Shown one piece after another: positions 29,361 through 50,686 of a stretch of DNA of 64,000 nt (within the stretch, counting starts at the first letter, position 1; each line of letters starts with the position of its first letter). The notes beneath the pieces are model-generated. The model was not told where the DNA came from, searched no databases, and saw nothing but the letters and a program-made list of their open reading frames with translations. Origin of the DNA: Tachypleus tridentatus (Eukaryota > Arthropoda > Merostomata > Xiphosura > Limulidae); the NCBI RefSeq assembly GCF_004210375.1, contig NW_027467782.1, positions 27,383,276-27,447,275 on the forward strand, read 5' to 3'. The position numbers and the translations under genes were made by a program.

Positions 29361-29365
29361 AGATC

Positions 29366-29499
29366 AATTATACGTTGACAATCCAAGAAATACTTCACAT
29401 TTAAATGTTAAAAAGTCTATGAATCTAGTGTTAGTAATATGATCACATAGACTTTTAACATTTAAATGTGAAGTATTTCTTGATTGCCAACGTATAATT
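29366..29499. repeat. Long inverted repeat (hairpin) just past the transporter stop
   Basis: The left arm 29366-29421 (AATTATACGTTGACAATC ... AAAAGTCTATG) pairs with the right arm 29446-29499 with a few mismatches or indels. The 24-base loop is one minisatellite fragment (AATCTAGTGTTAGTAATATG). It starts 67 bases downstream of the stop codon on the minus strand and may be transcribed as 3' UTR. Confidence 0.9.
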
Positions 29500-29565
29500 T
29501 CCAATGTTTGACAGTTGATTCGTTTGAGTTTTGGGAAGCTCGAAATCTTCACCAAGTGCCTTTGT

Positions 29566-29613
29566 TTATTTCTTGGAAGGTCGAAGTGTAGGAGTTATGC
29601 CAGCAATCAGCCG
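29566..29613 (-). CDS. Transporter coding exon 14 (cytoplasmic C-terminus, stop)
   Basis: Acceptor TTTTTCATTTCAG. It encodes [15 protein letters not shown] and TAA. A short basic tail following GSLKD is normal for the family. The bases AATAAA overlap the stop codon. The 3' side is flanked by the 37-bp minisatellite, stray units of which also lie in the preceding intron. Confidence 0.85.
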   Translation of the reverse strand, partial: RLIAGITPTLRPSKK

Positions 29614-32600
29614 CTGAAATGAAAAAAAAAAACGAATTCAATAGTTGAGGTATAACTTCCTAATCTGAATATTAACCTCATTTATCATCATAAATATTAT
29701 ATCTGGAAATATTAACATAAATGATATTTATACGTAAAGAAACTGGTGTATTTCAGTAATATTTTATTTGCCAACTTTGAGACTGTCTCTATAGTCAATA
29801 TAAGTGTTGAAAATCTACTACAATATGATCATATACTAAAGGAGGATCTAGTGTTAGTAATATGATTATGTACTGAAGGAAAACATGATAATAAGTTTCA
29901 GTATAAATAATTTATCAATAATATTTAAAATTTTACTTTTGATAAAGACGAAAAGCAACTCACGTCCTTAAGAGAACCTGGTGTTACCAGCATAAAATGA
30001 AAAGCATATAACGGAATCCATAACATTGAAGCCAGGGCTATCCCCCAGCCTAAGACTTCTCCCCACCAAGGATAAACGTAAGTCTCTGCATACACCAAAG
30101 GCTTGTATCTCAAAACTGAAAACAGGAATATTCCCTAAAGGAAATATGTATTTAGAATTAGAAAAAGACATTCTCTGGTTCTCTGAATGAAACTGAAATA
30201 AAATTGAACATCATTTGTGTGTATATATATATATATATTAGCTACTAAAGATAAGGTATTTATTTATATGTTTTGATACTGTGAGAAACGTAACTGAGTT
30301 AACATAATGCCAGTTTTATCGAGTAAGTGAGAAAAATGATCTGTTATCACAATTAACATATAGTATTCTCACTTGCTGAATGTTCAAGGTTCATTTCGTT
30401 ACTTACAGTGAACAAATGTACAAATCCAGGTCCTCCATTATCCTTAAATACTTTTATAACTCCACCATAGGTGAGGGTCAATACAGTTTACCGTAACTGA
30501 GATATGGCGTGGCTGTTTATGTCAATGTCAGTGGCCGAAATAAATAATACTATTATGCAATCTGTTGTGCTGAAATACAACTAGTTCTCAATATCAGAAG
30601 TGGCGATTGAGGCTCATTAAATGTATCGCCATCTATTGAATGACACCTCAAACAAAAATCAATAAAAAATTCACACTTCTGGTTTGGTTTGTTTTGAGTT
30701 TCGTGCAAAGCTACATGAGGTGTATATGCGCTAGTCGTCCATAATTTAGCGGTGTAAGACTACAGGGAAGGCAGCCAGTCATCATCACCCTCCTCCAACT
30801 CGTGAGCTTCTCTTTACAAACGAATAATGGAATTGACCGTTACATTATTACGTCCCCACGACTGAAAGGACGAACATATTTGGTGTGACGGGAATTCGAA
30901 CCCACGACCCTAAGATTACGAGTCGATTGTCTTAAGCACCTGACCGTATCGGTCCTACATTTTGTGTATTCAAGATTTAAACAATTATAAAAATAATTGT
31001 GGTATGTGTAGCCATCATTTCTTTATCACATAATTATAAATAAAAGTACTGTGTGCTCAACATGAACAGGACTTTCAGTATGTCAAGATCCTGATTAAAT
31101 ACTTATTGATAAATGTTTTAAATGTAATACAAAAATTGCGGTTGTTAAAACTAAATTTAATTTTCAATGAACGGTGCCATCTTTAACACATAAAACATTA
31201 ATGTTTATATCAGAATTGTGCCTTTTCAACCCTGAAAGGTGCCACAAACAAACTCCGATATCAGAGTTGAATTCAACAATCATAGAAATCTATCCTTAAA
31301 TTTTCATTATTCCAGTTGGATTTTCAGTCGAATTTCGTCCTCTTCTTCTTGGAAAGGAGTCTGTGGCATTTAGGTGAGGACGTTTCTGGGACCAAACCCG
31401 AACTCACCATTAACATACCAATAATCGCGTGCTGATATAATCCACTAATTCCAATGTTATACTGTTATTGGTAATATAGGGTATCAAACTTACCAAACAA
31501 ATGGCTGGAGAGACAAAAACCCAGGTAGCGAGGAAGTACCAGTTAGGCCGATATCCTGTCATCTCTTCAATGTTGCTAGACAACCTTTTTACACCTGAAA
31601 TAATTTATTGTTATTAATATTTTAACAAATTTATTGTTTTACTGGTTGTTACCTTCACGTAAAAAAACCACTTGACATAAAACTTGAATTAACTCAAATC
31701 TACAAATTAAAAGTGTATTTGTTAATTAATAGTTCAAAGTTTATAATGAAAACAACTGAAAATCCCACAAAAGATTAAAAAAAAAAGGCCCCTGGTGGTT
31801 AGGGCGCTTGACTCGTAAACTGAGGGTCGTGGATCCGAATCCCCGTCAAACGAAACATGCTCGCCCTTTAAGCCATGAAGGCATTATAAAGTGATGATTA
31901 ATCCCACCATTCGTTAGTAAAAGAGTATCCCAAGAGTTGACGGCGAGTGGTGACACCTAGCTGCCTTCTCTCTAATCTTATACTACTATATTAGTGATGC
32001 TAGCGCAGACAGTCCATATGTAACCTTCGCAAATTTAAAAAACAAAACAAAAGGTAAGAAGATAATTTAAAGGATGAATAGCGAATCTGATCCTTTGTGG
32101 AGATAAAGTTAAAAAAAACTAGAAAAAGTGAAGCGAAGAAAAATTAAGTTGTTAAAAACTATTGACTTTTGAGTACAATAATACAAGGATTAAATGTAAT
32201 GAATAATTAACTATCATCTCTAAAGTGAAACTTGAGTAAGACACAATCTTCTACGGTTAACTTGAGAATAATATATCATCATCTTTAGGAGAGCTTGCAC
32301 ATAGTACAACAGCACATTCTAGAGTTAATTTCAGAATAATATATCATCATCTTGAATATAGCACATCAGCACATTCTAGGGTTAACTTGAGAATAATACA
32401 ACAACATATTTTAAGGGTAACTTGCATATAGTACAACAGCATGTTCTAGGGTTAACCTGCATATAATAAGATACCACCCTTCAAGATTAACTTGTTTATT
32501 GTACAACAGCTCCTCCTAGGATTAACATACGTAAAATACATCATCACATTCTACGGAACAGAATAACAACATATAAATAAACAGATATATAAGAAGTGGG

Positions 32601-35600
32601 AAGTGGCGTAAGAAATAATGCAGGACATGCATTTGAAACTTACCATAAACCCATGTAATAGCTATAGTTTGAAAGAAAACAGTGAACAGTAGAGTCATTC
32701 CACTGGCAGAATAATAATCCATCAGTTGAAATATGTACATGCCCCCCCCTGAAAAGTAAAATGATTATTTTAGTGAATAATACAATCAGTTTAAAGAAAT
32801 CCAATCAGAATTATTTATTAACAGTTTCGTTTTTATTAAATATATTTTATTACAAGTTACAGTTTCCATATTCTAGATACAAGATAACACCATGGTAAAG
32901 CCACAGAAATAAACAGATATATCAGAAGTGGAACGTTACTGAATAAATATAATAGTATTGGGAGTTGTGCTTATGGTAAGTTTTATTTATTACGTCATTT
33001 TTTACAGTGAATAAGATTTGTTTTAGACTATCCACCCAATATTAGACATCATGCACTACACACCCGACATAAGTCTTCATGTATTACACATTATCATGAG
33101 ACATCATGCAATACACATCATCATTAGATCACGTACTACACACCCAACATCAGACGTTATGCACTACACATCAGCATTAGACATTACATACTAAACACTA
33201 AACATTTGACATCATGTGCAACACATCATCATTAGACGTCATGTACTACAGACCAATCATCACATAACAAACTGAGACAGTTATAGATATCTTTCTACAG
33301 GAACTAACATCTCTCTCTACAGCAGTACCTTACTGTTATCATCATTGACGCCATTAATTATGACGTCGTTTATTTTGGATGAGATGACGGCTTGAGTAAC
33401 TTTTTTTTTTTGACGGACAAATGAAACATCTACCATAATGATATTTTCCTTTTACTCGTTTATTGATTTTTTTTTAATATTATGGAACATACCTTAGTGA
33501 CCATTGGTAGGCCTAACATGTATAAGATGATAACAATTACTACGGTAAAAACTTCTCTTCGCGGTCTCAAAAGAGATGGCCATTCGTCCACGATACCTGT
33601 GATGAAAGTTTCCACGGTGCAGAACTGAAAAACAAAAACTGACCAATATCAGTACACATGTTGTCATAATATACAGATCAAAGTAACTTAATAACATAGT
33701 TAGACAGATCTATATAAATTGTATATGTACACTGCTAACCAAAATCTTAAGATCAATGAACAAAAAGAGAAAATATGCATTTTGCGTTGTTAGACTTAAC
33801 CACATATTTGAGTAGAGCTTCGATAAAAGACAATAAGAAAAGGGAAAATAAAAATAAAAAACCTTTTTAGCATTTAATAGGAAAAATGTGAACACTATGA
33901 AATTAGCCTAAATACCAGTTGATCAAAAGTTTAAGACCGTACTGAAATGAAGCGTTAATCGGTAAACACGAAACGAAATTTAGTCATTTGTGTTTAAGCA
34001 TTAGTATTGTCAACATCTTCCACTCGCATCTCCTGTGTAACATTGGGTACAAACATGGCAAAGGCAAAAAAGTTGACAGAGTTTGAACGTGGCAGCATTC
34101 TCGAACTGCAAAATTAAGGTTTCTCTGAACATGCCATCGCTGGTGAGACTGTGCGTAGTAAAACTGCTGTTGCAAATTTCTTAAAAGATCCTGAGGAATA
34201 TGGAACGAGAATTTCAAGTGGTCAGCCCAAAAATATTTCGCCGACGTTGAGTAGGAGGATTCGACGGGTTGTCCGGCAAGACAACAGCCAATCGTCGAAC
34301 CAGATTAAGGCCCTTACGGACACAGAATGCAGCTCAAGAACAATAAGACGGCATCTACGAGAGAAAGGCTTTAAAAATCGTAAACGTTTTCAAAGGCCAC
34401 GCCTCCTTCCACACCACAAAACAGCTCAGTTAAACTTTGCTGAGAAGCACCAAACACGGGGCGTAGAAATGTGGAAGAAAGTTTTGTTTTCCGATGAGAA
34501 AAAAGTTAACCTGGACGGTCCAGATGGCTTACAACGTTACTGGCACGATAAGGATATCACACCGGAAAAAGTTTCTACACGACACAGTGGAGGAGGTTCC
34601 ATCATGATCTGAGGTGCTTTCTCCTTCCATGGAACAATAGAACTCAGATTATTCAGGGCGTCAAACACCAGCTGGCCACATTAGCATGTTGGCGAGAGCA
34701 TTTTTATTGACTGAAGGTTCCCGCTTGAGTGGAAATACCTGGATCTTTCAGCAAAACAACGCTGCAATCCACAATGCCCGCAGGACAAAGGACTTTTTGA
34801 TGACGAATAACGTGATTCTTTGGGACCATCCAGCGTGTTCGCCCGAACTGAACCCCATTGAAAATGTTTGGGGGTAGATGGTAAGAAAAATCTATAGAAA
34901 TGGACGTCAATTTCAAACAGTGCATGATATCCGTAAAGCCATCTTCACCACTTGGAATAATATACCAGCCAGCCTTCTGCGAAATCTTATATCGACTATG
35001 CCAAAGCGAATGTTTGCAGTTATTCGCAATGATGGCTGTACAACTCACTAATGAGACCTCTTATTGGGCATTTCCTACCCTGTTTGGGACTTCTTTCTGG
35101 TATGGTCTTAAACTTTTGATCAGCTAGTATTCAGACTAATTTCATAGTGTTCACATATTTCCCTATTAAATGCTAAAAAAGTTTTTATTCTTATTTTCCC
35201 TTTTCTTATTTTCATTTTTCGAAGCTCTACTCAAACAAGTGGTTGAGTCTAACAATGCAAAATGCAAATTTTTTTGTGTTAATTGGCCTTAAGATTTTGG
35301 CCAGCAGTGTATATATATTTAGTGAATTAATGTTTTATATAATAAAGTTTCAAACATACGTGTTATTATTTAGTTTGATAACGTAATACTTCATCTTGCG
35401 TGAGAGGACGTTTTAAGTTATTAGTTTCTGAAATAGAAGTTTATCTCTATGGATCACTGAAGAATGGTACTTTGAAATTTCTTGCATATTGAAATATTTA
35501 ACCAGCGATAAACAGTTAAACAATATGTGGTTTCGCATCCATTGTTTGATTTGTTAGATATAAAATAGAACATAATGTAAACTCATGTGACGTGCAGCAA

Positions 35601-38600
35601 CAAGTATATGTGCCACACAACAAACATGTGTTAGAGGTCGCAGTTGAAACACACAACAATCTGAAACTAGGACTAGAATAACGTGGTGAGATTTGTCGCA
35701 GGTATCAACCACGTAACTCATTAGTGACATATGTAAGAACTTACAAACATATGTAGCAACTGCAAGAGGTATTAACCATGTAGCTGATATAGTTCATTAC
35801 TGTGACATGTGGCACATAACTAAAAAATGTAACACGTAACAGCCATGTAACTTGTTACTAATATATGTAATACGATAGGAAAACTTAGGAGGTATCCATC
35901 GTGAAGATGATATCTGTTATATGTAGCAAGTTACATACAATTGTAGGATGTAGCATACACACGTATTAACAATTGTATTGTAACTCGACACATGACTTGC
36001 AACCAAATATTTGATAGGGCAGAGGAGGAAATAAAATATATGATATTAGCAACACACCAGAAGGGCTAGTTTTGTTAAACTGAAAAATTATATGTTACAC
36101 GCACACCAGGGAATAATATATGGGAGTCATGGAGTTAAACAGTTCGTAGCTTCTACCGTTAGCTCCTGTTGCTACTCAGGTTGTGAGTGTAATTAATGAC
36201 AATGATATCCTTTCATTTCATCAACTACAAGTTTTACAAATTTCACGTACTAGCCTTACGTTCATTGAGGGATTGGCAGAATTTCTAAATCCCAAAAAAC
36301 AGTCGCAACTTGCTAATTGTTTTCCCCTTACCTATCGGTTCTCTCGTATATCTCTTGTTCTTTGTTGAAATGTGTAATTGGGTAAAATGTAACGGACGTA
36401 CTAAATAACACCCGCACGTTAACGTTACTCACGTTTTTATACTGCTGAAATTGTTTATTTCACTTCCAAGGAGATTCCATACGTTGAACCACGCACAAGA
36501 CGTTAAAACTCCCACCAAGCAAACGATAACAGAAACGTATAAATTTAAAACAAAAACGAAAAGACAGTGTTTAATCCCTGAATATTTCACAATGTTGACG
36601 TACATTAACACATAAACATATTATCTGCTCACCTGACTGTTTATGCCGAGGATTAGCAGCATGAAGAAGAATACAGTTGCCCATAGAGGTGAATTATGCA
36701 ACTGTGAAACAACTTCAGAGTAGGTGATGAATGCCAACCCTGGACCTGAAGAAAATACATCATGTTAGATTATATCTAAACAAGGACCGTGTTTGTACTC
36801 TGAAAATAACACAGCAGGTCACTGTCTGATAATACTTAGTGTATATTAAGATGTTGATACACTGTAACTTAACAATAGACGTTCATTTTAAATGTTTTAG
36901 AACCAAGATTAAAAAAATATATATTAATAAAGTTTGTTCTGAAATATTCTGTTACACGTTGATTTTGTACAGAAACAGAATTTTTAGTGTTTATATAAAC
37001 AACTGAAGCACTAGAAGACTGAATTATCTTACCGGACTTTACAACGTCAGCAACTTCAGTCCCGTCACCTTTCAAGTAGGCCATGTGTCCGAGGACGGAA
37101 AATACAACGCTACCAGCAAATATACTGGTAGCAGGGTTAATAAGACAAAGAATATATCCGTCTCTAGAAATAAAGATAGAGAAACAATTATGAATGTGTG
37201 CAAAGTGTACAATAATATCCATGGAAACAGAAACACTGAAAGAATAACAAATACAGAGTATAGAGAATTATTACATTATTGAACATTTTGTGCAAATCAT
37301 TGTTAAATAATTAAATTAAAACATAAGAAAACATTTCTTAAGAGTTTGTTTGTTACCGGAAGAAGTTGTGGCTAAACTTGTTGTAACTTCCAAGAGTTAC
37401 GACGGAACCGAAACCAACACCAAAGGTGAAAAACACTTGCGTTCCTGCTGTCACCCAGACCTAATAACATTAATACAATAAATTAATACTGATTACAAAG
37501 AGTTCACTTCTTTAAATTTAACACTAATTTAGTTTAGTTTCGTTTTGATTAAAGAATTATTAACTAGTATTAAAGATTGATAGCAAATAAACGAAAAAAA
37601 ATCGCTTGACAGTTACTGATTAACAATGACACTGTTTTCACTAAAGACGTAAATTACAGTTACATTAGATGGGAAGTTTTATTTGTTGCCCAGTCTGGTT
37701 GTTAGTGTTTGTCTTCAGCGTCAGGGGCATTAAAATGTACGGTTAATCCTACTATTCGTTGGTAAAAGAATATGCCATTGGTTCTGTCCAACAACCTTTA
37801 ACATCTAACATTAATATTTACTGGTGTTTATATCGTATATGAATGTAATAATGATAACATTGGAATATTAATATCATAACAATAACACTTAAATCTCAAT
37901 ATAGTAACAATAACACTTAAATCTCAATATAGTAACAATAACATTTATATATGAATATAATAACAATAACATTAGTATATGAATGTAATAACAATATCAT
38001 AAACGAACCTTGGGATCCAAAAGTTTGTCAAATTGTGGACTAATGTAAAAAAGTAGTCCATCTCCAGCGCCCTCTAACGTCACTCCACGAATAAAAAGAA
38101 CGATTAGAATGACGTATGGAGTGACTGCTGACACCTCAATAATCTGCAAACAATGAACAAATAATAAAGTAAAACAGTCCGAAGATATGAAATAATTAAT
38201 GCCAGAAACATTAAAGATTATTGGATTAAATAAAAGGTGATGTTTTCTTATGATTACTGTAATTGTGTTTTATGTCGTTAGGTGATGTTTTCTTATAATT
38301 ACTGTAATGGTGTTTTATGTCATTAGGTGATGTTTCCTTATAATTCATCATTAGGTGATGTTTCCTTATAATTACTGTAATGGTGTTTTATGTCATCAGG
38401 TAATGTTTTCTTATGAATACTGTAATGGTGTTTTATGTCATTAGGTGATGTTTTCTTATGATTACTGTAATGGTGTTTTATGTCATTAGGTGATGTTTCC
38501 TTATAATTACTGTAATGGTGTTTTATGTCATTAGGTGATGTTTTCTTATTGGTTATTACTGTAATGGTGTTTTATGTCATTAGGTGATCTTTCCTTGTGA

Positions 38601-41600
38601 TTACTGTAATGGTGTTTTATGTCATTAGATGATCTCTCCTTATGATTACTGTAATGGTGTTTGATGTCATTAGGTGATGTTTCCTTATGATTACTGTAAT
38701 GGCGTTTGATGTCATTAGGTGATCTTTCCTTGTGATTACTGTAATGTTTTTTGTTACTATGTGATCTGTTCTTGTAATTACAAAATGGTGTTTTATGTCA
38801 TTAGGTGATGTTTCCTTATGGTTACTGTAACACTGTTTTATGCAATCTTTCCTTTCTTTCCAAGTTTTATTTTAGTTTAAATCTTACCTTGCCACTTCTC
38901 AGTAGACCTTTCCAGATGACGAAATAAACCACAAACCAGGCAAGTAACAAACACAAACTCAGTTCCATGTTCTCACCTCCCAAGTCATGTAATCCCGAAG
39001 TAATCTGTAATGTTCGACGCCTTCAAAAGAGTAATAAATACTGTTTTATTGAAATGTACTATTAAACCAATTTCAGTTAGGATTTCATAATTTTTAATTT
39101 TTGAGTATTAAATGATAAAACTGTCTACTATGGTATTATAAGTACCTTTCAAGCCAATAATAGAAACAAGGAAGGTTATTTAAAAACCAATTATACCTAG
39201 AAATATATGTCCTAAACTTTATCTTACAAGATTAACAATAAGGTTAACTGGGTAAAATTCTCACAAGGTACATGGTGCATCATAACTGGCACATGAGGTG
39301 TCCATTATTATTACAGTCATTGTTAGTTGAGTCTATTCCTAGATGTAGCTACAGTAAGCATCATCTGTTTTTAACCAACTTCTACAAAATATACGTATAA
39401 CAAACATTATAACAGAATTAAAATTAAACAGTTATTTTGAATTATCAATCTTATTTCTAAACCATGAGTCACAACAAATAATGTAAGTGGCCATTGCATT
39501 ATGTTGTCAGATAAAATCCAGACACTGATGTCAGACTAGTCAGCAGGTATGTAAAATCATTTAAGGGTTAGAATTTGAGTGCTTAGAAACGTAATATCTC
39601 AACTCCTACTGCCTTTCATAGGGCTGCAGCAACTGTGAGAAGGCAGTTACGCTTAATATTCAGATACAACCTTAAAAGCATCCTAAAAATTCTAAAAGTT
39701 GAAACTTCCAACCTCCACTATTTTATTTAAAAATGATATTAAACAAAATTTAATCAAATTTAAAATTAAACTTTAATAGAAAGATGTTTGAATTCAAAAT
39801 TTAACAATTATTTTACAAATATTTAAATTTTCTCTCATTTATATAAAACACTACTATTAATATTAATTTTAGGTGTTAACATATCTGCTAAAAGAAGTAT
39901 CTTACATTCTAATACAAATTATCAAAAGTAATCATATTTTTTATATTTTTATCTTTAACTTTGTCATTGTTAAGCACAAAGATACACATTGAGATATCTG
40001 TTACTTGCATTATAAGTCTTCAGACAAACCGTTATGCCACTAGGAAGCCACCTTTACTTCTTTTTTTTTACTATTACAAGTATTTATTTCAATTGAAATT
40101 CTAATACAAATAATTTTATTTAAAAATCAGTAGTTTTGTTTTGAAAATCATTGTATAATTTATAAGAATAAGGAGTTTTTCTTCAAAATATTTTCCTTTT
40201 TTTATTAGTAGATTTACATTGTATAACTTTCTAAGATAGTTATTTTGACGTTAGTTTGTTGTTGTTTTTTTAATTTCGCACAAAGCTGTTTTGTTTGTTT
40301 GTTTTTTGGAATTTCGCACAAAGCTACTCGAGGGCTATTTGTGCTAGCCGTCCCTAATTTAGCAGTGTAAGGCTAGAGGGAAGGCAACTAGTAATCACTA
40401 CCCACCGCCAACTCTTGGGCTACTCTTTTACCAACGAATAGTGCGATTGACCGCCACTTTATAACGCCCCCACGGCTGAAAGGGTGAGCATATTTGGTGC
40501 GACCGGGATTCGAACCCGCGACCCGCAGATTACGAGTCGCATGCCTTACGTGCTCGGCCATGCCGACGTTAGTAAATGAATGTTTGTTAATGGAATTTAT
40601 TTCAATAGAATTGGGAAGATCTTTATTACTCTGAGATTTACCTAGATTGAAACTTAATTGTAAAGGATTAGTTGTTTGTTCTACATGCTTAAACCACATA
40701 TATTATAAGTTAATAAATAAATTATATTATCATTTTACATCGTGGTATATCTTAAAATAAATGTTGAAAATCCACTGTGGCTGGACAAGTTAAACATTTT
40801 GGACTATCGACAATATATTTTTCATAAATTAAAGTAGAAAAATATAAATTACTGGTAAACAGTTAACTGGACTAAAAACCAGTGTACAAATGTGGAAAAT
40901 GAATAAATAATAACATTATGTTGATAGAAAATAGTTATTTAATTGTACTCCCATTGTAATATATATATGTATATATATACATAGAAAACAATATTCTGAG
41001 AACACTAGATCCAAATACGACTTTTATTTATTGATCGAAAATAAAAGATTCATCTGAAAAATAAAAAATTAAACCTACTCCCAGAATTCGGTTACAGGTG
41101 ATTTTGCTTCGGTGGCTGTAATATTAAGATTCGTGATGTTGGTTCCCTCTTTCATACAGTATTTTGTGTTCCACCAATTACCACACGATTCCCAAGGCAG
41201 TGGTGACGTCATTGAGGAAAAGAAGTAGAATATAGTCCAAGCTATTATCACCACGTGGTAGATATTATAAAGACAAACGATGGTCATTGAAGCAAAGCCA
41301 ATTCCTAGTGAAAGTATAGATTACATAACATAAGAACTGTTGACATATTTGAGACACAAGTATGAGTTATATTTATCCGGAAAAGGTGAAAAATACCAAG
41401 GCATTAGAAGTGAACAACAATAGCTACCTTTAAAGATAGGAACTAAATTCCAGACCCCGATACCACCAACGCTGAGGTACTGACCAATGGCCACTTCCAG
41501 GAAGAATAGAGGAGCAGCACACAAGACTAAACAGATGAGGTAGGGAAACAAAAATGCCCCTAAATAACAAACAACAACATATAATCCATTAGAACCATCG

Positions 41601-42984
41601 ATTTAACATTTAGTAAGGTAAAGGTTTCATGTATATTTTGTTGGATTAAACCACAAGACACATACCTCCACCATTTTCATAACACAAGTATGGAAATCGC
41701 AATACGTTTCCAAGACCGACAGAGTAGTTTATAGAACTTAAAACAAAGTCCAGTTTTCCTTCCCATTCCCAACGTTCTGGTTCTTTCTCCTTATCTGGAC
41801 TTGTTACCGACTGGATCATTTCATCAGGTATTGTGATCACTACCGACTGGTTCATTTCATCGGGTATTGTGATCATTTCCACTCCATTTTCTACACTGAC
41901 GGCTTCTGATGTTTCATTTTCAGGAGATATGTTATCCAAAGACGTAACTTTAACACAAGCAAATGCTGTAGAAAACAAAATACACTGTCAAGACATATAT
42001 GTATATATATATATAGTTGAAAAAGCATACAGTTATATACATGTACAGTTGAAGCGATGAAGAAATAAATACACCTCAGAAAACCAGTAAAATAAATTTG
42101 TTTAAATGTTCTGTTTCATTTATTCCATTAGACACAACTTCTAAGTGCACCCACACCCTAAATTGTTTCATTTAAAACCATTTTCATGTGCACATATACA
42201 CAATAATTTATCTAGGGAGACATTAATTCAGTACAATCAAATACATTATGTAACTGTGCGTTCCAAGAGATGTCATTTATGTATATTTACGTTTTATTTA
42301 AGTAGATCAATTTTTAAGTTTTGTTTGTTAAAATTTTTATATTTTAAACTGCCACAATTTCTTCTTTGTTTATATAGTTTTCTAAATTTCTTAAACAAAT
42401 TTTCGAGCATAAAAACCTAGAAATGAAATTCAGAAAGATAATATTAAAACTGAGAATATATTTAACAAAATAATTCCAACATTGCAAAGTCGTTGTCATC
42501 CTTATGTACATTTATTAAAGCCAGGATTGGTCAGAAATTAGGATATTTCTTCGTTCTGCACTTTATTGGTTGATTTTCTGTTCACCCTTTGATTTAATAA
42601 AGCAGTAAGTAAAAACCAGTAGAAAGGTGTTTTCTGCTGTTTGTTGTTCGGTTGCTGTGTGAAGTTCATGTCCCGTGCTTCAAACGTCCACTCTTTTCCT
42701 AAGTTAGTTAATATAGTAGTCCTAATATATTCTTAAGTGAGATTTGAAAGTGAAAAACTCTGCCCGTAGCAATTTTATTTCCTTGACGTCATGACAGGTC
42801 TGTTAAAGAAAAGTTACCAAAACCTGAAGGTCGTTTTGTCGGTCAGTTCTGTTTGTGTCTCAATAAAACGTACATAACAAATCTTACTCCAGTTTCCTTA
42901 TTTTTATAAACATCAGTCACTTAAAAACTTCTTAGTGTTAAATAAAAAAATTAGTTACTTACGATGAGGTGGTGACTTCCTCAT
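29566..42984 (-). CDS. SLC6-family Na+/Cl- dependent transporter, GAT-1 (GABA transporter)-like, 14 coding exons
   Basis: A plasma-membrane symporter of the SLC6 family, which moves a small amino-acid-type substrate with Na+ and Cl-. Coding exons (minus): 42984-42963, 41965-41666, 41559-41428, 41304-41079, 39020-38888, 38143-38009, 37460-37357, 37163-37033, 36745-36633, 33624-33493, 32748-32644, 31594-31494, 30134-29964, 29613-29566. All junctions are GT/AG and phases agree, except at exon 11 where a G-run shifts the frame. Repairing that gives about 616 residues, normal for SLC6. Visible family marks are the TM1 block [18 protein letters not shown], the [10 protein letters not shown] disulfide loop with two NIT glycosylation sites, [46 protein letters not shown] and the TM12-region [10 protein letters not shown] glycine (residue 91) sits where monoamine carriers have Asp, so an amino-acid substrate is expected. 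The closest remembered match is GAT-1. Several site residues deviate (see findings), so GABA itself is uncertain. Confidence 0.93.
29822..29890. repeat. Stray units of the 37-bp minisatellite in the transporter's last intron
   Basis: CAATATGATCATATACTAAA and GATCTAGTGTTAGTAATATG follow directly. They match the main array, so the terminal coding exon (29613-29566) lies between array parts. Confidence 0.85.
29964..30134 (-). CDS. Transporter coding exon 13 (TM12)
   Basis: Acceptor TTTCCTTTAG, donor AAGGAC/GTGAGT. It encodes [38 protein letters not shown] and GSLKD. It joins exon 12 in phase 0, which leaves the exon-like segment near 30407 unused. Confidence 0.93.
30407..30490 (-). other. Exon-like segment in the last-but-one intron, not used in the deduced mRNA
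   Basis: The minus strand is open for about 28 codons and reads [22 protein letters not shown], then a perfect donor CACT/GTAAGT. No good acceptor precedes it, and exons 12 and 13 already join in phase without it. It may be an alternative exon, a decayed duplicate or chance. Confidence 0.25.
30682..30957 (-). repeat. SINE-A copy, full length, in transporter intron 12
   Basis: GAGTTTCGTGCAAAGC to CTGACCGTATCGGTCC, moderately diverged. Confidence 0.9.
31494..31594 (-). CDS. Transporter coding exon 12 (TM11)
   Basis: Acceptor AATTATTTCAG, donor TGTTTG/GTAAGT. It encodes [20 protein letters not shown] and the TM11 segment [14 protein letters not shown]. The IEEM.GYRP motif is an SLC6 hallmark. 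Confidence 0.93.
31787..32051 (+). repeat. SINE-A copy, full length, in transporter intron 11
   Basis: GGCCCCTGGTGGTTAGGGCG head to an AACAAAACAAAA tail. Opposite to the gene. Confidence 0.9.
32220..32545. repeat. Degenerate tandem repeat in transporter intron 11
   Basis: Units share TTCTAGGGTTAACTTG, AGAATAATATATCATCATC and ATAGTACAACAGCA in changing lengths. Confidence 0.75.
32644..32748 (-). CDS. Transporter coding exon 11 (TM10), frame broken by a G-run
   Basis: Donor TATG/GTAAGT. It encodes [19 protein letters not shown]..., the TM10 consensus. The acceptor TTTTCAG is followed by seven Gs and one C before ATG, 8 bases where 6 or 9 are needed to keep phase with exon 10. The family has Gly-Gly here (6 bases). 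The excess looks like a homopolymer error or a recent indel. Confidence 0.85.
33035..33265. repeat. Degenerate ~38-bp tandem repeat in transporter intron 10
   Basis: Recurring ATTAGACATCATG(C/T)ACTACACA with CACCCAACAT or TCATC spacers. Confidence 0.75.
33493..33624 (-). CDS. Transporter coding exon 10 (TM8 end to TM9)
   Basis: Acceptor TTGTTTTTCAG, donor ACTAAG/GTATGT. Phase 0, 44 codons. [20 protein letters not shown] is nearly identical in pattern to GAT-1 family members. TM9 and GLPMVTK follow. Confidence 0.94.
33728..35311 (+). mobile_element. Tc1-type transposon with ~200-bp terminal inverted repeats, inside transporter intron 9
   Basis: Flanked by TA. The outer ends read CACTGCTAACCAAAATCTTA and the inverse of CACTGCTGGCCAAAATCTTA. 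The inverted similarity continues for about 200 bases to GATCAAAAGTTTAAGACC (33919) and its inverse (35105-35122). It lies antisense to the host gene. Confidence 0.88.
34055..35051 (+). pseudogene. Tc1/Bari-like transposase, broken
   Basis: Starts [20 protein letters not shown], then an immediate TAA. It continues [36 protein letters not shown] (first catalytic Asp) and WHDKDI. A TGA replaces the usual Trp at 34610, a frameshift follows near 34640, then [12 protein letters not shown] (Asp replaced by Asn) and NPIENVWG, with a TAG after it. It ends at TAA 35051. Confidence 0.85.
35560..36060. repeat. Low-complexity degenerate repeat in transporter intron 9
   Basis: Recurrent short phrases (ATGTAACTTGTTACTAATAT, TATGTAGCAA, GTAACACGTAAC) without a fixed unit length. 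Confidence 0.4.
36633..36745 (-). CDS. Transporter coding exon 9 (TM8 start)
   Basis: Acceptor TTTTCTTCAG, donor AGTCAG/GTGAGC. It encodes [37 protein letters not shown]. The family motif LG(I/L)DSQ here has Asn430 in place of Asp, a second-sodium-site position in GAT-1. Confidence 0.94.
37033..37163 (-). CDS. Transporter coding exon 8 (TM7)
   Basis: Acceptor TTTATTTCTAG, donor GTCCG/GTAAGA. It encodes [29 protein letters not shown] and a hydrophilic loop. Asn360 and Ser364 of the Na1/Cl- sites are retained. The intervening NSxTS serine is proline, and the usual Phe of AGF is serine. Confidence 0.93.
37357..37460 (-). CDS. Transporter coding exon 7 (TM6)
   Basis: Acceptor TGTTATTAG, donor TTCCG/GTAACA. 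It encodes [19 protein letters not shown], then LGSYNKF. The glutamine of the chloride site is kept (residue 324). The next ion-site serine is replaced by threonine (328), a conservative change. Confidence 0.93.
37716..37785 (+). repeat. SINE-A fragment in transporter intron 6
   Basis: AGGGGCATTAAAATGTACGG and ATCCTACTATTCGTTGGTAA from the middle of the element. Confidence 0.75.
37845..38000. repeat. ~31-bp tandem repeat in transporter intron 6
   Basis: Five units of AATA(T/G)(A)GTAACAATAACA plus CTTAAATCTCAA or TTATATATGAA. It ends next to the exon 6 donor. Confidence 0.75.
38009..38143 (-). CDS. Transporter coding exon 6 (TM5)
   Basis: Acceptor TTGTTTGCAG, donor CCCAAG/GTTCGT. Phase 0 at both ends, 45 codons. 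It contains [23 protein letters not shown] and [10 protein letters not shown], matching the TM5 and extracellular loop 3 consensus. Confidence 0.93.
38219..38850. repeat. ~45-bp minisatellite in transporter intron 5
   Basis: About 13 units of GTCATTAGGTGATGTTTCCT TATGATTACTGTAATGGTGTTTTAT with small variants. It sits between exons 6 and 5 and ends about 40 bases before the exon 5 donor. Confidence 0.93.
38888..39020 (-). CDS. Transporter coding exon 5 (TM4)
   Basis: Acceptor CTTTTGAAG, donor GGCAAG/GTAAGAT. It encodes [15 protein letters not shown], then the TM4 hydrophobic stretch ending in [11 protein letters not shown], the standard SLC6 junction before TM5. It begins with the third base of the Glu codon split from exon 4. 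Confidence 0.92.
39590..39728. repeat. Dispersed ~120-bp repeat, copy A
   Basis: TTTCATAGGGCTGCAGCAAC ... GAAGGCAGTTACGCTTAAT ... TTCCAACCTCCACTA matches 50520-50640 in order and spacing. It lies in transporter intron 4. Confidence 0.6.
39960..40055 (-). repeat. SINE-B copy, old, in transporter intron 4
   Basis: TTAAGCACAAAGATACACAT and TTATGCCACTAGGAAGCC in inverse orientation. Confidence 0.6.
40262..40566 (-). repeat. SINE-A copy, full length, with duplicated 3' end, in transporter intron 4
   Basis: ATTTCGCACAAAGCT occurs twice (40272 and 40312), so the tail carries a second copy of the 3' end or a tandem insertion. The head ends in GGCCATGCCGACG. Confidence 0.93.
41079..41304 (-). CDS. 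Transporter coding exon 4 (TM3 and extracellular loop 2)
   Basis: Acceptor TTTCACTAG, donor TGGGA/GTAGGT. TM3 reads [13 protein letters not shown]. The position after NIY, normally a conserved tyrosine that contacts substrate, is histidine (CAC). The loop then has the conserved cysteine pair in [14 protein letters not shown], two N-I-T glycosylation sequons and TEFWE. Confidence 0.93.
41428..41559 (-). CDS. Transporter coding exon 3 (TM2)
   Basis: Acceptor GTTATTTAG, donor AAAG/GTAGCT. It encodes GAFLFPYLI..., the hydrophobic TM2, then [10 protein letters not shown] and [14 protein letters not shown]. The GQY..GG.GVW pattern is typical of the GAT-1 branch. The tyrosine at residue 114 corresponds to the chloride-site tyrosine of the family. 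Confidence 0.93.
41666..41965 (-). CDS. Transporter coding exon 2 (cytoplasmic N-terminus and TM1)
   Basis: Acceptor TTTTCTACAG, donor GAG/GTATGT. It encodes residues 8-107: a hydrophilic acidic N-terminal tail, then KLDFVLSS and the TM1 signature. The tail contains two near-identical 12-residue units ([10 protein letters not shown].) from a 36-bp tandem duplication. TM1 reads [14 protein letters not shown] where the family norm is VGYAVGLGNVWRFP. Confidence 0.92.
42963..42984 (-). CDS. Transporter coding exon 1 (start codon)
   Basis: ATG AGG AAG TCA CCA CCT CAT C, then GTAAGT. The start has A at -3. The single leftover base joins CA of the next exon to make a proline codon, so phase supports this start. 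It fits better than an ATG lying in intronic sequence just before 41965. The 5' UTR presumably extends upstream but its start cannot be placed. Confidence 0.75.
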
Positions 42985-43019
42985 TTTAAATTAACAATAT
43001 ACAGTCGCCTAAGATGTAA

Positions 43020-43450
43020 TTTTCACCTTCAACTGTTATAACAACAACAAAAAACAAAACATTTACTTATGATTTGATAGTACCTTCCATATGTTAGAAT
43101 ATCAATAGTTAGACGCTTAAGGTGTAGTGTTCACTTCCAACATAACAACAAAACAACATTTACTTATGATTTGATTGTACCTTCCATATGTTAGGATATC
43201 AATAGTTAGACACTTAAGGTGTAGTGTTCACTTCCAACCGTTATAACAACAACAACAAAAACAAAACATTTACTTATGATTTGATTGAACCTTCCATATG
43301 TTAGAATATCAATAGGTAGTCGCTTAAGGTGTAGTGTTCACTTCTTACCGTTATAACACCAACAACAAAACAACATTTACTTATGATTTGATTGTACCTT
43401 CCATATGTTAGAATATCAATAGGCAGTCGCTTAAGGTGTAATATTGACCT
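43020..43450. repeat. ~107-bp tandem repeat, four copies, upstream of the transporter start
   Basis: Repeated blocks ACATTTACTTATGATTTGAT, CCTTCCATATGTTAG, ATATCAATAG and TTAAGGTGTAGTGTTCACTTC. The block begins about 35 bases upstream of the ATG on the minus strand. It is therefore in the 5' UTR, an upstream intron or the promoter. Confidence 0.93.
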
Positions 43451-44534
43451 TCAGTTGATCGGAGAACAAAACCAGTAATCTGAGAAGTGATATTGGCTAT
43501 GTGTTGAGATAAAATATTCATTCAGTGTTGTTGAGTTTATCAACAAGTGCGAATAATGAATGACGTGTAGTGATTTGTTTATAAAAAATGCGACGATTTG
43601 TCCTGATTTCTTTGAGTATTACAATTTGAACAATTGTTAGTCAAGTCTAGCACTACAACACTTGCAAATGTGTTTACAGTTATGAAACTTGAAATAGTGG
43701 TTATAAAATAAATTGAAACACTTAAGGTAAGTACATGTACCTCTTTTACTGTTATGTATGTTTTAGGTTAAGATTAAAACACAGCCGGCTTCATTTCGAT
43801 ACTAAATGTGAATCGTATTTGATTAACAAAGATATATAAAATAAACACGTCTTTCGCTTCATAACAAAACCTGTCACGTCATCTAATACATGGCCTCAAA
43901 TGAAAATCTGGTGGACAAAAAGAATGGTGTGTCTTACTGTTAGACATACATTAATACTAAAATGTCGTTCTTCGCCAGCTGATGTAATTAATACCATTTC
44001 CTTTAGCATAGTTAGTTTAATGTTTCATATGCGATAAACAACAGAAATAACCGTATTTCTTACTAAATATTATTAAACACAAAGATTAATACATTTGACT
44101 TATAACAACAAAACAGGAACGAAACGTTTCATATTCCAAGCTGGTAAAAAAACTGTGTCGATAACGATGTGATATTCAGTTTTAAAATTTGATTTGTATT
44201 CCAACCATTTGTTTTAAAGGCGGGGTAATCTCACCTGGAAACCAATGCTATAGCTGTTTCTTACAATGGAAAATGTGATATGAAAAACGAGAAAAAAACG
44301 TTACAAAAGACACCGAATGTTGTGTTCTCTTTCTTCTCGTTTAAATAAAATTACCCAATTGCTTTTTTCTATGGTTTATTCTCGTATTGTAGGTGATGTT
44401 CACTATACTATTTTTGCCTGTTTGTTATTATACTTTAAGAGTAAAATATTTCCTCTATTATAAAACACTTACGAAAAAAACACAAACAACTATGAAGGCT
44501 GTTGAAATAAATCTGTGCATCTAAAAGCACAGAA
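43451..44534. other. Upstream region of the transporter gene, unassigned
   Basis: Upstream of the tandem repeat on the minus strand, so the promoter may lie here. I could not identify a TATA box with a supported start site. No exons recognised. Confidence 0.4.
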
Positions 44535-45192
44535 ACAAAAGTAAGCACCTCCGTATTCACATACCAATTTCCGCATCTGCACGAGAATTTACGAAATAAG
44601 CACCTACACGCACGCCTATACTGGTAATGGAATATATAAAATAAGCACCTGTGCCGTCATTTAGAAATTTATGCACTTTCACGTGCGTGTACGAAGGCAA
44701 GTTCATGTGCGTTGATCTACCAATTTATCTATCTGTGTGCAAATGTGCTAAAATAAGTATTTCTTTAAACCTGCATGTACCAATTTACACATTACTGTGC
44801 CCATTTACGAAAATAAACATCTGCACGCGTGTCTACAAGCTTAGTATTTATCGTGCTCATATACTTTGATAAACTCCTAGACGCAAGTCCAAAAATAAGC
44901 ACCTGCGCGCTCATCTAAGAAGTACAACACCTGCGAGTATGTCTACCAATTTAATAATTTCTGGCAAAAATAACAAAATAAGAATCTGTGCGCGCATCTA
45001 AGATATTCAATACTTGATATGGCATTTATCAATTAATTAACTTCGCTAACATTTAACAGAACAAGCATCTATGCGAGCTTCCACAGAATTAACACCTGCA
45101 CGCTCAACTACAAAATTAACACTTGCGCGAGAATGTTGCAATTTACCCACCAGTCCTCGTATATTGGAAAATAAGCACATGCGCGCGCATTT
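44535..45192. repeat. Degenerate repeat rich in AATAAGCACCTGCGCGC-type phrases
   Basis: The phrases AAATAAGCACCT, GC(A/G)CGC(A/G)(T/C)..TCTAC and AATTTAC recur every 30-60 bases. CpG content is unusually high for this AT-rich window. There is no coding pattern. Confidence 0.6.
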
Positions 45193-45424
45193 TAATTTCG
45201 CACAAAGCTACTCGAGGGCTATTTGTGCTAGCCGTCCCTAATTAAGCAGTGTAAGGCTAGAGGGAAGGCAACTAGTCATTGCTACCCACCGCCAACTCTT
45301 GGGCTACTCTTTTACCAACGAATAGTGAGATTGACCGTTACATTATAACGTCCCAAAGACTGGGAGGGCGAGTATGTTTGGTGCGACGGAGATTCGAACC
45401 CGAATACCTGATCATGCCGGGCCT
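45193..45424 (-). repeat. SINE-A copy
   Basis: AATTTCGCACAAAGCTACTC to GATTCGAACCCG. Part of the tRNA head is deleted. Confidence 0.92.
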
Positions 45425-45593
45425 TCGTTAGTTTAAACAATATCGAAAATTCATAGAATCTTATTTATTTCCTAAAATAATTTGTCTACAAATTGGAAAC
45501 ACATTATGGCCCATATTATTGATTAGGATTGATAAGAAAAACACTTTAATGTTTTAAATTTTTAAATTTTAAACTTTTCCGAGGCTATAACAT

Positions 45594-45716
45594 CACTTCC
45601 GCGGTAGAAGAGTGTTAAATATTAGGATTTGCAAAGCTAAAGTAACGGGTTGGATTTTCCTCAGTGTACATCGCAAATAGCTCATGTGGCTTTGATGTAA
45701 GAAAACATACATAAAC
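45594..45716 (+). repeat. SINE-B copy
   Basis: CACTTCCGCGGTAGAAGAGT, GGGTTGGATTTTCCTCAGTG and GCTCATGTGGCTTTGATG. Confidence 0.75.
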
Positions 45717-47728
45717 ACAATAGAACACCATCATCGGTTTTCACTATATTTGATACATACTTTGGTTAAAAAGGGAAACGTGTCATTTCAACGCAAGAGG
45801 TTATATTCTAAACATACATGCATATGTATATACACACACATGTATATAAAATTATTAGTATTCTACAATGAATAAATTAATCTCATTAATATTAACTTAA
45901 TTATATTTCGAAATTATATTTTCACAAGAAAACTCAGCACTTACAAATTAATCTAAACCTAACAAGATTTAGGCTTTACTTTGGCCAATTAATTTGGCCA
46001 ATGGTGGTAATAACGAATTTCATCACAATACATGAAAAATTAAATTTTTTTCTCACCTAATATAATTGAAATATTATTCAGGTATTTGAAAATATAGTAA
46101 GGTTCTAATGTGTAAAATATTAAAATTATATTTATCAATATTAATCTCGCAAACTTGTTTTCACTGTGAATCTCAGTATAAATGAGATGGAGGTTTCACT
46201 CGTAACTTAGTTTATTAACGGTTTTCCAGAATTTTTCATATTTTTGAATCAATATTCGTTCACGTGTCTACAACAATTTATCTGTGTGACGTAATCAAAA
46301 CAGTACAAGAGATCGCAAGACATGTAAAAGTAATGCGAGAAAGGGTTCAAATCTGATAAAACAAATGTCTATAACAAAACGGATTTTATTATTTCCAACT
46401 TTTAGGACATCACAAAGTGTTATCAGGCACTTTAAACTTATATCGCAAAAATGCTTTGATGTTAAAATAATCCAAAAACCTCGAAGCAGTATGTACGTAA
46501 GTAAATTAGCATTTTATATTCTAACCCTAAACGATTCAGGCTAAATCTCTTTTCTCTATAACACGGTTTAATGCAGCATCATTGCTATAGTTATTTTTTG
46601 AATTAAGTGTGGACTGTATAAATCGTTTGTAAAATTCTATCTCAATACAGTTGGTATGGGTATTAAAACTATAGAAGTAGAGAACAACGTTGTGACCTTT
46701 TTAGGTCATCTTTAGGTTAAAGAGTTTGCAACTATATGAATCATTACAATTATAAAGTACAATGTATCAGTTGAAAGAGTATATCCTTGCTTTTTTGTTT
46801 TTCAACAAAGACAACTTTGACCTTTGTGTGGAAAACTTGTAATTATAAGAGATTGAAGAAAATTACGTTTTGAACGGATTTAAGAATAATACTTTTATTG
46901 TACTTTGTGATGATGTAAGTAGGTTTATGTGTGAAATACAATCAGTAAGTTGAGATAAACAAAACATCTGAAATTTAGAATGTGATTTAATACTAATCAG
47001 AAAAATGATTGTTCTTTAGCAGAAAAGAATGATCGTGTGAAGTGTTAAAATGTAAACATGTGTTATGCTCATTTTCATGTAAGATTGTTGTTGTTATTCA
47101 AGAGAAAAACTTGTAAATATATACAAATTAAACATTAAAAATTTCTTGCTTTCTGTTTATTTCCTGGGAAAAAAGTATGTGCTGCTGGATGTAACAAATT
47201 TTGAAATAAACGTAGATTATTATACATTTTCTAACACTGGGATATTTATTTTATGTACATGGTAAACTGTTAAGTGATTTACTAATATATGGGTCACAAT
47301 CTTTAAATTTGTTATCATTACTCTACCAGCAGTACATATGACTCTGAATAATGGACAGAAAAATATATTTAATAATCTGGTAACTGAATGTATAATATTT
47401 TATATGAAAAGATATCCAAGACTTTTAATTAATTCGTACTGTCAGGCCATTGGTGGGAAAACTGTAACAAAATATAAGTGCTTACCACATAAAGATGGAT
47501 AAAATCATGGGTTACTATAATAAAATTTAATTTCTTTCTTACTCTAAAAAAATTAATCAGAAAGAAAATGAAGTGATTGAAAGATGAGTTTTCTTATGAC
47601 TGTAGAGAAGAAGTTAAGGTTGTTACTGTTTGTTTGTTTTTTAAGACTGTTATGTTATTATCATTTCAATATATTCCTGAAAAAAATGTACATCTTGCTT
47701 CTGGATATTATCTTCATTTGAAATGAAT
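45717..47728. other. Unassigned AT-rich sequence
   Basis: Only the foldback fragment near 46.7 kb is recognisable. No coding pattern. Confidence 0.45.
46650..46745. repeat. Foldback repeat fragment
   Basis: GGTATGGG, AGAGAACAACGTTGTGACC and TTTTTAGGTCATCTTTAGG match the core region of the foldback family with substitutions. It is an old fragment. Confidence 0.4.
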
Positions 47729-47959
47729 TTATCCTATCTTAATAGAGTAAACAGGCTTATCTTTATTTGCTTCTAGAGTTTCTCTTTTGTAAATTAAATC
47801 AAATAATGGGGACTGCAAGGTAGGGAAAGTATGAAAAACATCCCCAGAGTCCTCCTCAGCTTTCAAACTTAAAACTTTAGAGTTTGACAAGTTGGAAGGA
47901 AACCAGCTCTTTCCTCTTTTCCGATAAATGAGGGGGCTTTTGATAAGCATGTAGAGCAA
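47729..47959 (-). CDS. Candidate terminal exon, unidentified
   Basis: The minus strand is open from an acceptor (CCATTTTCTATTTAG) to TAA, 76 codons. It includes SPLIYRKRGKSWFPSNLSN and KAEEDSGDVFHTFPTLQS. It is less AT-rich than its surroundings and uses varied residues, unlike chance frames nearby. No partner exon or poly(A) signal was found close by. Confidence 0.4.
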   Translation of the reverse strand: MLYMLIKSPLIYRKRGKSWFPSNLSNSKVLSLKAEEDSGDVFHTFPTLQSPLFDLIYKRETLEANKDKPVYSIKIG

Positions 47960-49743
47960 CTAAATAGAAAATGGATTGGTGGACAATTTAAATCACATGT
48001 TATTGAGAGAGTACCACTCTAGAAGAGCACAGTGGCAAACATCACTGAAACCAGGAAGATTCTCTTGTTTTGATCAAGGAAGTTTTGCAAGGTATTTCAA
48101 TCAATTAATGAACAGCACAAAAGAAATATCTTGAAAACTAGAATTTTCCAATCAATTCAAGCACTAATAAAACAGTCTATAATACATTACATAAAAACCC
48201 GCAATTTGAAGTTGTATAGGCTTCTAATAAGTTTCATGAGTAAACAATATTTTGAAATACAGTTCATTTTCTAAAGTATATTTGAAAAAGTGTGAACATT
48301 TATCAGTTTGAAAACAATTATATAAAGTTAATGTGAATTTTAACTTGAAATTTTATTCTAGAAAATAGTAATTAAGGTACTTTGTAAGTTTTCTACATGA
48401 GAAACAGTCTTGATGAGGCTATAAAAAAGGTGAATGATAAACATGAGTGTCTGATGAAAAGGTTGAAGAGCATTTGAGAGAAAATTTAAATGTATGTATG
48501 TAAAACATTTTTGTAGAATTGAATATTATCTGTGAAACATCTTCTAATTGTATATAATTTTATATGTTAAGAAAGTGTTATTAAGGCATTTAGTATAAAC
48601 TTATTGAGATTTAATATACCAATTTTGTTAACAATTAAACCCATTCATTGAATAATTGTTTGATAAACATGCCAGTTGCATAATATAAATAAATGAAGGT
48701 TATTAAAATGGAAGATTTAATTTGCTAATGTAGTAACTTGTGGTAAAATCATTTTATCTGTATTTGTTTATTACCAGGTTCTAATGTGACATTGTAAGAA
48801 AAGCTGGAAAAATTAGTTGGAAAAAGAAAGAGAAAAGATAGTCATCAAAAATGGTAATTAAAGTTGTAAAGGTATTGTTATTTTTAAATTTTCTATAAAA
48901 CCTCTTGTTCCACAACTTTGTGGTAACTGTGATTTACAATGTGTCTTTTAAAAATAACAACAGTATAAAAAATGTTCTAGTACAATGAAATTATGCAAAC
49001 TGTAGGGTTAGTCCTTATCCAACCTTTCTACCCTGAGTATATTATCAGCACTAGCTCACAAATAATACAGAATGTATCTATTTATATTGTTGACAGGATA
49101 TATTTAATGAATGATACACAACAAGTATTTTCAATATTCAAAAATGATTCATGTATCATCTTTTATGCATTGACAGTTCCAGGTCAATCTTGATATTGAT
49201 AGGATGTGCAACAAATTCTTGTTTTTATAAGTGTTTTTATTTATGTTTTTTGCAACTTTCCAGATGTTACTTCCTATGATTCATGAATTCCTTTAGATAT
49301 GTCTTTTCATATTTTGGAAAATTATAGCACAGAAAAGGAGTGAAAGAATATCCTTTTTTTTTTTTTTTTGAAAATCCAAAGATTGCTGTTTTTTTTTTTA
49401 TCATTTATTGTTGCAACGTTTTTATGTTACCACTAAATTACAGCCTCTGTTAACCACAATATAACCAAAATTATGTTCAAAGTGGCATATAGTGTCAATC
49501 AATCAATTAGTGAATCTGTTTTACTCTTTCATAGATGTTTTAAAAATGTGTCTTTATATCTTGCACATTAATATGAAACAAGGGAATGATGTCAGCAAAT
49601 TTTACTTTTGAAATATCTTGGATGGCTGAATTATTGATAGAGGTTTTATATTGAAAGTTAGATAGACAATAAGGAAAATGGACTTTGGTTATATTTTATG
49701 ATGTTTGTTATTACATTACATTTCCATTTGCTTTGTCTTTTAG

Positions 49744-50517: not shown

Positions 50518-50640
50518 TTCATAGGGCAGTTGTGGGAAGGCAGTTACTCTTAATTTTCTTGAATTTGAAATTAAACCACCCAAACATTTCTACATGTTAA
50601 AACTCCTAACATCCACCATTACAAAAGTTATGAAATAGAA
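50518..50640. repeat. Dispersed ~120-bp repeat, copy B
   Basis: TTTCATAGGGCAGTTGTGGG AAGGCAGTTACTCTTAATTT ... TCCTAACATCCACCATTA is the sister of the copy at 39590. The family is unknown. Confidence 0.6.
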
Positions 50641-50686
50641 CTAAACGAAACTACAGATCCTATCTCATAAGATCTTTTAACTTTGC

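Follow-up and report, generated by a model that had tools for sequence, protein, structure and literature searches.

Does a transporter gene with replaced substrate- and sodium-site residues encode a carrier of changed specificity, or is it a redundant copy under relaxed constraint? The question is raised by a window of 64,000 nucleotides (the whole stretch of DNA analyzed) on contig C19 of the horseshoe crab Tachypleus tridentatus (27.38–27.45 Mb), whose minus strand carries an SLC6 transporter gene with 13 recovered exons running from 41965 to 29566. A first-pass annotation had read this gene as a GAT-1-like paralogue with changed substrate or ion coupling. We favor, with a probability of roughly 60%, another account, in which a chelicerate GAT-like gene gave rise to a dispersed duplicate family, the pocket was altered at the level of the clade, and the His140 and Leu68 of the window copy mostly reflect relaxed constraint in redundant copies.

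The gene structure extends beyond what had been recognized. The first of the exons found (41666..41965, TM1) holds an in-frame ATG at 41876 and the residues N59, S61, and L68 (GAT-1 numbering); its start codon was placed by comparison with the annotated paralogue P0001, and a further exon may exist upstream. Exon 2 (41428..41559, TM2) is bounded by AG/GT sites in matching phase, exon 3 (41079..41304, TM3) places His at GAT-1 Tyr140, and exon 4 (38888..39020, TM4), previously considered doubtful, has AG/GT sites and joins exon 3 in phase to read ..TEFWE-RRTLQ.., which rules that doubt out. Exon 5 (38009..38143, TM5) likewise fits by splice sites and phase and is followed by exon 6 (37357..37460, TM6; Thr at Ser295 and Phe at Leu300), exon 7 (37033..37163, TM7; Pro at Ser328), and exon 8 (36633..36745, start of TM8; Asn at Asp395). 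The range given by the first-pass annotation, 36633..41965, covers these eight; beyond it lie exon 9 (33493..33624), exon 10 (32644..32748), exon 11 (31494..31594), exon 12 (29964..30134, the last transmembrane segment), and exon 13 (29566..29613), which adds 15 protein letters before a stop at about 29566. Every junction but that between exons 9 and 10 has AG/GT splice sites in matching phase.

At that junction exon 9 ends in phase 0 and exon 10, which starts in a run of eight G (32749-32742), falls out of frame in the assembly. The run has six G in all five further copies in which it was read (L024, L029, L030, L031, and L055), and each of these keeps the frame. Because of this break the assembly does not support the 616-residue product reconstructed earlier, which can be obtained only by stepping over it, and the window copy as assembled would yield a protein truncated after exon 9. 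The longer run may be a true lesion or an assembly error in a homopolymer. The altered protein can nevertheless be encoded intact, since a copy on contig C13 (L021 plus L029) has exons identical to those of the window outside the G run, lacks the frame break, and carries all six changes reported for the window copy, Leu68, His140, and Asn395 included, with 13/13 exons intact. Exons 9–13 were read in the window, C13, C9, and C1 copies (exons 9–12 in L031, exons 9–10 in L024). Frame breaks occur in 3/4 of the copies with Leu68 that were read through all exons: the window has the run of eight G, exon 6 of the C9 copy is short by one T, and exon 12 of the C1 copy has an extra G. All three are one- or two-base homopolymer differences, as long-read assembly errors would be.

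Membership in the SLC6 (neurotransmitter:sodium symporter) family is supported by PF00209 profile matches (C19:27424200-27424583 and 27424662-27424835) and by full-length alignment to solved members. Matches of the window protein in phmmer were GAT1, BGT1, CreaT, GAT3, and TauT; the NCBIfam model NF037979 scored 49 bits, one below its 50-bit cut-off, and the top PDB match, with the frame break bridged, was human GAT-1 (7sk2, 612.8 bits, residues 68-600 of 601).

Pocket residues across chelicerate relatives

The six substitutions reported for the window copy are all present in the DNA, and their codons could be located and aligned: GAT-1 Gly59 to Asn (AAC, within 41738-41721), Trp68 to Leu (TTG, within 41711-41694), Tyr140 to His (CAC, within 41266-41251), Ser295 to Thr (within 37436-37419), Ser328 to Pro (within 37144-37127), and Asp395 to Asn (AAC, within 36650-36633). 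A further change that had gone unrecorded replaces Leu300 by Phe (within 37421-37404), while N66, R69, Y86, E101, Q291, N327, S331, S396, and D451 are retained as in GAT-1 (SLC6A1).

Several of these sites have known roles. Tyr140 corresponds to LeuT Tyr108 and is regarded as a fixed element of SLC6 substrate recognition, and the hydroxyl of this near-universal TM3 tyrosine is credited with connecting the substrate to sodium and to the scaffold. A report on the rat GAT-1 structure describes a Tyr140 hydroxyl that touches the GABA carboxylate, a second sodium site to which Gly59, Ile62, Leu392, Asp395, and Ser396 correspond, a Ser295 that takes part in both the first sodium site and the chloride site, and a Leu300 that gives space for the GABA amine where monoamine transporters have Phe; in simulation, Tyr140Phe held GABA more loosely (PMC10352132). 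Elsewhere, human GAT-1 Tyr140Cys and Ser295Leu are given as severe loss-of-function variants (PMC11179425), and Trp68 is listed among the important residues of rat GAT-1 (PMC3849432) and described as lining the outer S2 site (PMC9687605). Literature searches on GAT-1 W68L, on D395N or Asp-395, and on horseshoe-crab GABA transporters returned nothing relevant, and the available part of a survey that counts 610 SLC genes in Limulus holds nothing on the clade described below (PMC7487162).

Relatives were taken as the best 120 listed from each of two protein searches and include ticks, spiders, a pseudoscorpion, and others; the residue census covered proteins shorter than 760 aa with a readable residue at the site. 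In the main tree of 44 proteins (another comprised 74), the genes of the horseshoe crab fall on a single branch (100/100) inside a chelicerate GAT-like clade (97/96) separate from GAT-1. Its other members include spider proteins (P0008, P0011, P0015, and P0017), tick proteins (P0019-P0045), and a protein of the pseudoscorpion Cordylochernes (P0013), with P0006, P0009, P0014, and similar entries grouped by tree position. The window gene carries the Pro328 of this clade. GAT-1 orthology fails both by tree, where tick P0060 groups with human GAT-1 (100/99) and the window gene lies elsewhere, and by residues, with Tyr140, Trp68, and Asp395 all replaced. Both the tree and the pocket residues argue against a plain GABA transporter.

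Much of the altered pocket is common to this clade. Within the best 120 of each search, Pro328 and either Asn or Ser at 59 occur in every readable clade member. Thr295 is found throughout except in 5/13 proteins of one tick group (tick-B), and Phe300 occurs in all horseshoe-crab, spider, pseudoscorpion, P0006/P0097, and tick-A proteins and in 6/13 of tick-B (all among matches listed). Asn395 is present in 11/11 spiders, 13/13 tick-B proteins, and the horseshoe-crab proteins except L023, whereas Asp395 is kept by tick-A (12/12), the pseudoscorpion (2), P0006/P0097, and L023, as well as by every readable protein outside the clade (again among matches listed). Parsimony on the 44-protein tree requires three changes at 395, either three gains of Asn or two gains plus a reversal; a topology that unites all Asn395 proteins in a single clade is rejected (p-AU 0.0007). 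Tick-B proteins (P0019, P0026, P0032, and others) also have Pro at Thr400, a GAT-1 substrate-site residue, in 11/13 cases among matches listed.

Positions 68 and 140 behave differently. Among matches listed, Trp68 is kept in 38/38 readable chelicerate relatives and in every readable protein outside T. tridentatus, and position 140 of the relatives is Tyr in 26, Phe in 10, Asn in 2, Cys in 1, and His in 0/39. The Phe residues fill 10/10 readable spider proteins, Asn occurs in two Rhipicephalus microplus entries, and Cys occurs in R. appendiculatus. Within the clade, His140 and Leu68 were met solely in T. tridentatus duplicates (among matches listed). Of the three states singled out by the first-pass annotation as His168, Leu96, and Asn430 of the window protein, only the last (Asn395) is therefore common in the clade; the sharing of several changes by relatives also refutes the notion that all six are private to the window copy. 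On these distributions the window substitutions would be of three ages: clade-wide (Asn or Ser at 59, Pro328, and mostly Thr295 and Phe300), repeated (D395N), and limited to the duplicates (Y140H and W68L). Decay, as the annotation had pictured it (relatives keeping the usual residues, and a single deviant copy with further lesions), largely describes W68L and Y140H and does not describe N59, T295, P328, or N395.

Loss of Tyr140 goes together with Asn395. Among the 145 listed proteins readable at both sites, Tyr140 is absent in 14/25 with Asn395 versus 1/120 with Asp395 (P = 6e-12, Fisher's exact test, a value overstated because the proteins are related), and in the clade proteins compared among matches listed, position 140 changes solely alongside Asn395. 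The lone Asp395 exception is a turtle GAT1-like protein (P0110, Mauremys reevesii), which has His at the Tyr140 position.

In our reading, Thr295, Phe300, Pro328, and Asn395 mark a real change of substrate and sodium site at the level of the clade. The parent clade would most likely consist of sodium/chloride-coupled carriers with a non-GAT-1 pocket (Thr295, Phe300, and Pro328) and a second sodium site that appears to have changed repeatedly (Asn395). Its substrate is probably other than GABA, and a plain GABA carrier is unlikely because Phe300, Thr295, and often Asn395 occupy known GAT-1 sites. More tentatively, and with rather less than even odds, we propose that this SLC6 branch repeatedly lost the second-sodium-site Asp (at least two gains of Asn) and then, solely on that background among the proteins compared, the TM3 tyrosine, so that such carriers might couple transport to sodium, or bind a substrate other than GABA, without the tyrosine hydroxyl. 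If true, this natural clade, with Tyr140 replaced and the second sodium site changed, would offer ready-made test pieces for coupling.

A dispersed duplicate family in Tachypleus tridentatus

A block search found exons 1–3 of the gene at no fewer than 40 places in the T. tridentatus genome. This is a lower bound, 40 being the copies scored among 84 candidates, and at least one further exon 3 place (C19:12.698 Mb) lies outside them. Of the scored copies, 25 are on C19, five on C13, three on C6, two each on C3 and C10, and one each on C1, C4, and C9. Introns are kept in the copies, which therefore arose as DNA-level duplications. Such a family of a GAT-like gene, with at least 40 dispersed copies, is unusual, and a single-gene reading of its residues misleads.

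Some of the copies are nearly indistinguishable. Those in the window and at C19:22.24, C13:113.98, C9:123.3, and C1:41.58 Mb are 99.8–100% identical over 912 bases, and across all copies, on eight contigs, identity over the exon 1–3 block ranges from 100% down to about 90%. The stretch common to the window and the C13 copy spans 28600..52159 in four main pieces (98.5–99.9% identical), and that common to the window and the C9 copy spans 28768-52363 (main pieces 95.3–99.2%); homology to both extends over at least 23.5 kb and is still running at both ends of the compared DNA. Copies L016-L018 are mosaic, with exons 1–3 84–95% and exons 4–8 97–100% identical to the window, and the neighboring copies at C19:27.42 (minus strand, the window copy) and C19:27.49 Mb (plus strand) are inverted with respect to each other.

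Lesions are widespread among these copies. Exons 1–3 are free of them in 16/40 (L039 being counted as lesioned for an insertion in exon 3), and of the 21 copies in which exons 4–8 were looked for, exons 1–8 were all found and open in five: the window, L020, L021, L022, and L023. Nonsense codons and the exon 3 insertion are common to subsets of copies. The insertion, found in nine (L039, L040, L042, and L044-L049), comprises about 69 bases and a 13-base repeat of the flank, like a small mobile element with a target-site duplication. Assembly gaps fall inside three copy stretches (L009, L013, and L016).

The residues vary among copies. At position 68 the 40 scored copies have Trp in 34, Leu in five mutually near-identical copies (the window, L009, L019, L021, and L034), and Cys in one (L012). 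His140 is present in 22 (codon CAC in 20 and CAT in two) and Tyr140 in 18, and a good part of the His140 copies bear nonsense codons or frameshifts in exons 1–3. At 395, the 21 copies comprise 12 with Asn, one with Asp (L023), one with Ile (L011, which combines it with His140), four that are broken, and three with exon 8 absent from the stretch. By sequence, L020 (C13:113.3 Mb) is the annotated protein P0001 and L022 is P0003, whose model begins within exon 3. P0001, the nearest annotated full-length paralogue, is 91% identical to the window protein and has N59, T295, P328, and N395, but retains Trp68 and Tyr140. L023 (C10:35.12 Mb), the same gene with exons 1–12 open, keeps the ancestral Trp68, Tyr140, and Asp395 and has Ser at 59. 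One duplicate set would have gained His140, and five near-identical copies would later have gained Leu68.

Could so many copies be an assembly artefact, with one or a few genes multiplied through uncollapsed haplotypes or misassembly and with errors in place of the odd residues? The near-identity of copies, the gaps, and the homopolymer differences point that way, but the spread of identities down to about 90% over eight contigs, the lesions common to subsets, and the presence of His140 in 22 copies under two codons argue against it, and we regard it as very improbable. A possibility that we entertain tentatively, and that is compatible with our preferred reading of redundant duplicates, is that gene conversion homogenizes an ampliconic family, that C19 is special as a chromosome (sex-limited or heterochromatic, for example), and that the copies act through dosage or have no effect. 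C19 (69.8 Mb) makes up about 3% of the 2,167 Mb assembly, yet holds 25/40 scored copies, and it may be an ampliconic chromosome or one set apart in some other way; near-identity between chromosomes, the mosaic copies, and the inverted neighbor of the window copy fit this too, while the copies on C13, C9, C1, C3, C6, C10, and C4 speak against a role confined to C19.

Constraint on the copies and the case for selection

Coding changes suggest weaker constraint on the window copy than on its sister. We counted polarized changes over exons 1–8 with L023 as outgroup and found 12 synonymous and 5 nonsynonymous changes on the L020 branch versus 14 and 26 on the window branch (P = 0.020, Fisher's exact test). 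The window branch is indistinguishable from neutral (P = 0.055–0.30 depending on the assumed share), and the L020 branch is non-neutral (P < 0.001), which points to weaker constraint on the former. The open copy L022, with His140 and Trp68, comes near the window's counts (16/26 synonymous/nonsynonymous), and so do the lesion-bearing L013 (12/24), L025 (13/30), and L026 (16/32); other lesion-bearing copies have 13/42 (L018), 5/19 (L011), 5/30 (L027), 6/23 (L012), and 2/1 (L014). In the protein tree the window branch has a length of 0.131 versus 0.014 for P0001. Columns near-invariant in 37 chelicerate relatives are broken at 15/190 in the window, 8/190 in P0001, and 8/190 in L023, and at 14/139 and 12/139 in the open copies L021 and L022. 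Clade-invariant sites are broken in the window as well (G45W, I338V, P369S, P376H, and Y554H).

Comparison of exons with introns gives a less uniform picture. The window differs from the C13 copy at 0/1830 exon and 27/9768 intron positions (P = 0.016), from the C9 copy at 1/1829 and 48/9651 (P = 0.005), and from the C1 copy at 6/1830 and 93/9383 (P = 0.004; Fisher's exact test throughout), and exons less diverged than introns would mean constraint. Taken segment by segment, however, 0/9 comparisons within the Leu68 group were significant, whether against all introns or against introns within 400 bp, so the overall contrast may reflect block-wise conversion. Between L020 and L022, divergence is higher in exons than in introns (67/1185 vs. 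172/4146, P = 0.03), which counts against constraint; the L020-window pair was dropped from the segment-wise comparison for faulty alignment (135 exon mismatches vs. 58 differences in the codon comparison). As judged from these counts, the evidence on constraint is mixed and leans toward its relaxation.

The first-pass annotation implied instead a neofunctionalized paralogue, in which selection for a new substrate or ion coupling favored His140, Leu68, and Asn395 and drove the amplification of the copies. The intact C13 copy with all the residues favors this view, as do the lower overall divergence of exons, the loss of Tyr140 among Asn395 proteins, and the uniform Phe140 of spiders. Against it stand the many His140 copies that bear nonsense codons or frameshifts, the excess of nonsynonymous changes relative to the sister branch, the further clade-invariant sites broken in the window, the lack of any local excess of exon conservation in the segment-wise comparison, and the reversed contrast between L020 and L022. 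We therefore consider selection for a new function unlikely. Altered substrate or ion coupling holds up at the level of the clade, whose members share the non-GAT-1 states described above, many of them Asn395 included. It does not hold up for the residues that headlined the claim, because the nearest annotated paralogue retains Trp68 and Tyr140, many His140 copies are lesioned, and the window copy is itself frame-broken as assembled and lies on a branch indistinguishable from neutral. On the preferred reading, dispersed intron-bearing duplicates of a chelicerate GAT-like gene, His140 and Leu68 would most likely stem from relaxed constraint in redundant copies and not from selection for a new function. 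A working Leu68/His140 variant may nonetheless exist, since these residues occur in the C13 copy with the frame intact.

Of the 26 nonsynonymous changes on the window branch, seven fall in 13 codons of exon 8 (alignment codons 338-350); the cluster is perhaps a single conversion event from an unseen donor.

Flanking sequences, repeats, and mode of spread

Probes from 20 kb upstream of the gene and from its 3' end hit overlapping, non-identical sets of places with pieces rearranged. The upstream sequence (window 61600-62500) recurs near many copies on C1, C13, C19, and C9, with pieces inverted, and more distant recurrences lie elsewhere. Gene 3' ends (window 29960-30660) occur at 99–100% identity at C19:5.46, 10.20, 13.62, 14.03, and 39.17 Mb with no exon 1–3 block nearby among the matches listed, and partial gene copies may have spread too.

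We considered a virus or giant mobile element as the carrier and rejected it, since the recognized ORFs outside the gene look like Tc1/mariner and the compared flanks show no sharp element ends. The window contains ten ORFs of at least 110 aa, and those recognized outside the gene resemble, by eye, Tc1/mariner transposases (11683-12538 and 34118-35060); the latter ORF lies in intron 8, within the stretch common to the C9 and C13 copies. Tandem arrays occupy 25500-29460, downstream of the gene, and 38200-38850 in intron 4. A repeat about 250 bp long, SINE-like by eye and headed by a tRNA-like segment, is found at 40293-40565 and at about 15 other places in the window, introns 3, 10, and 11 included.
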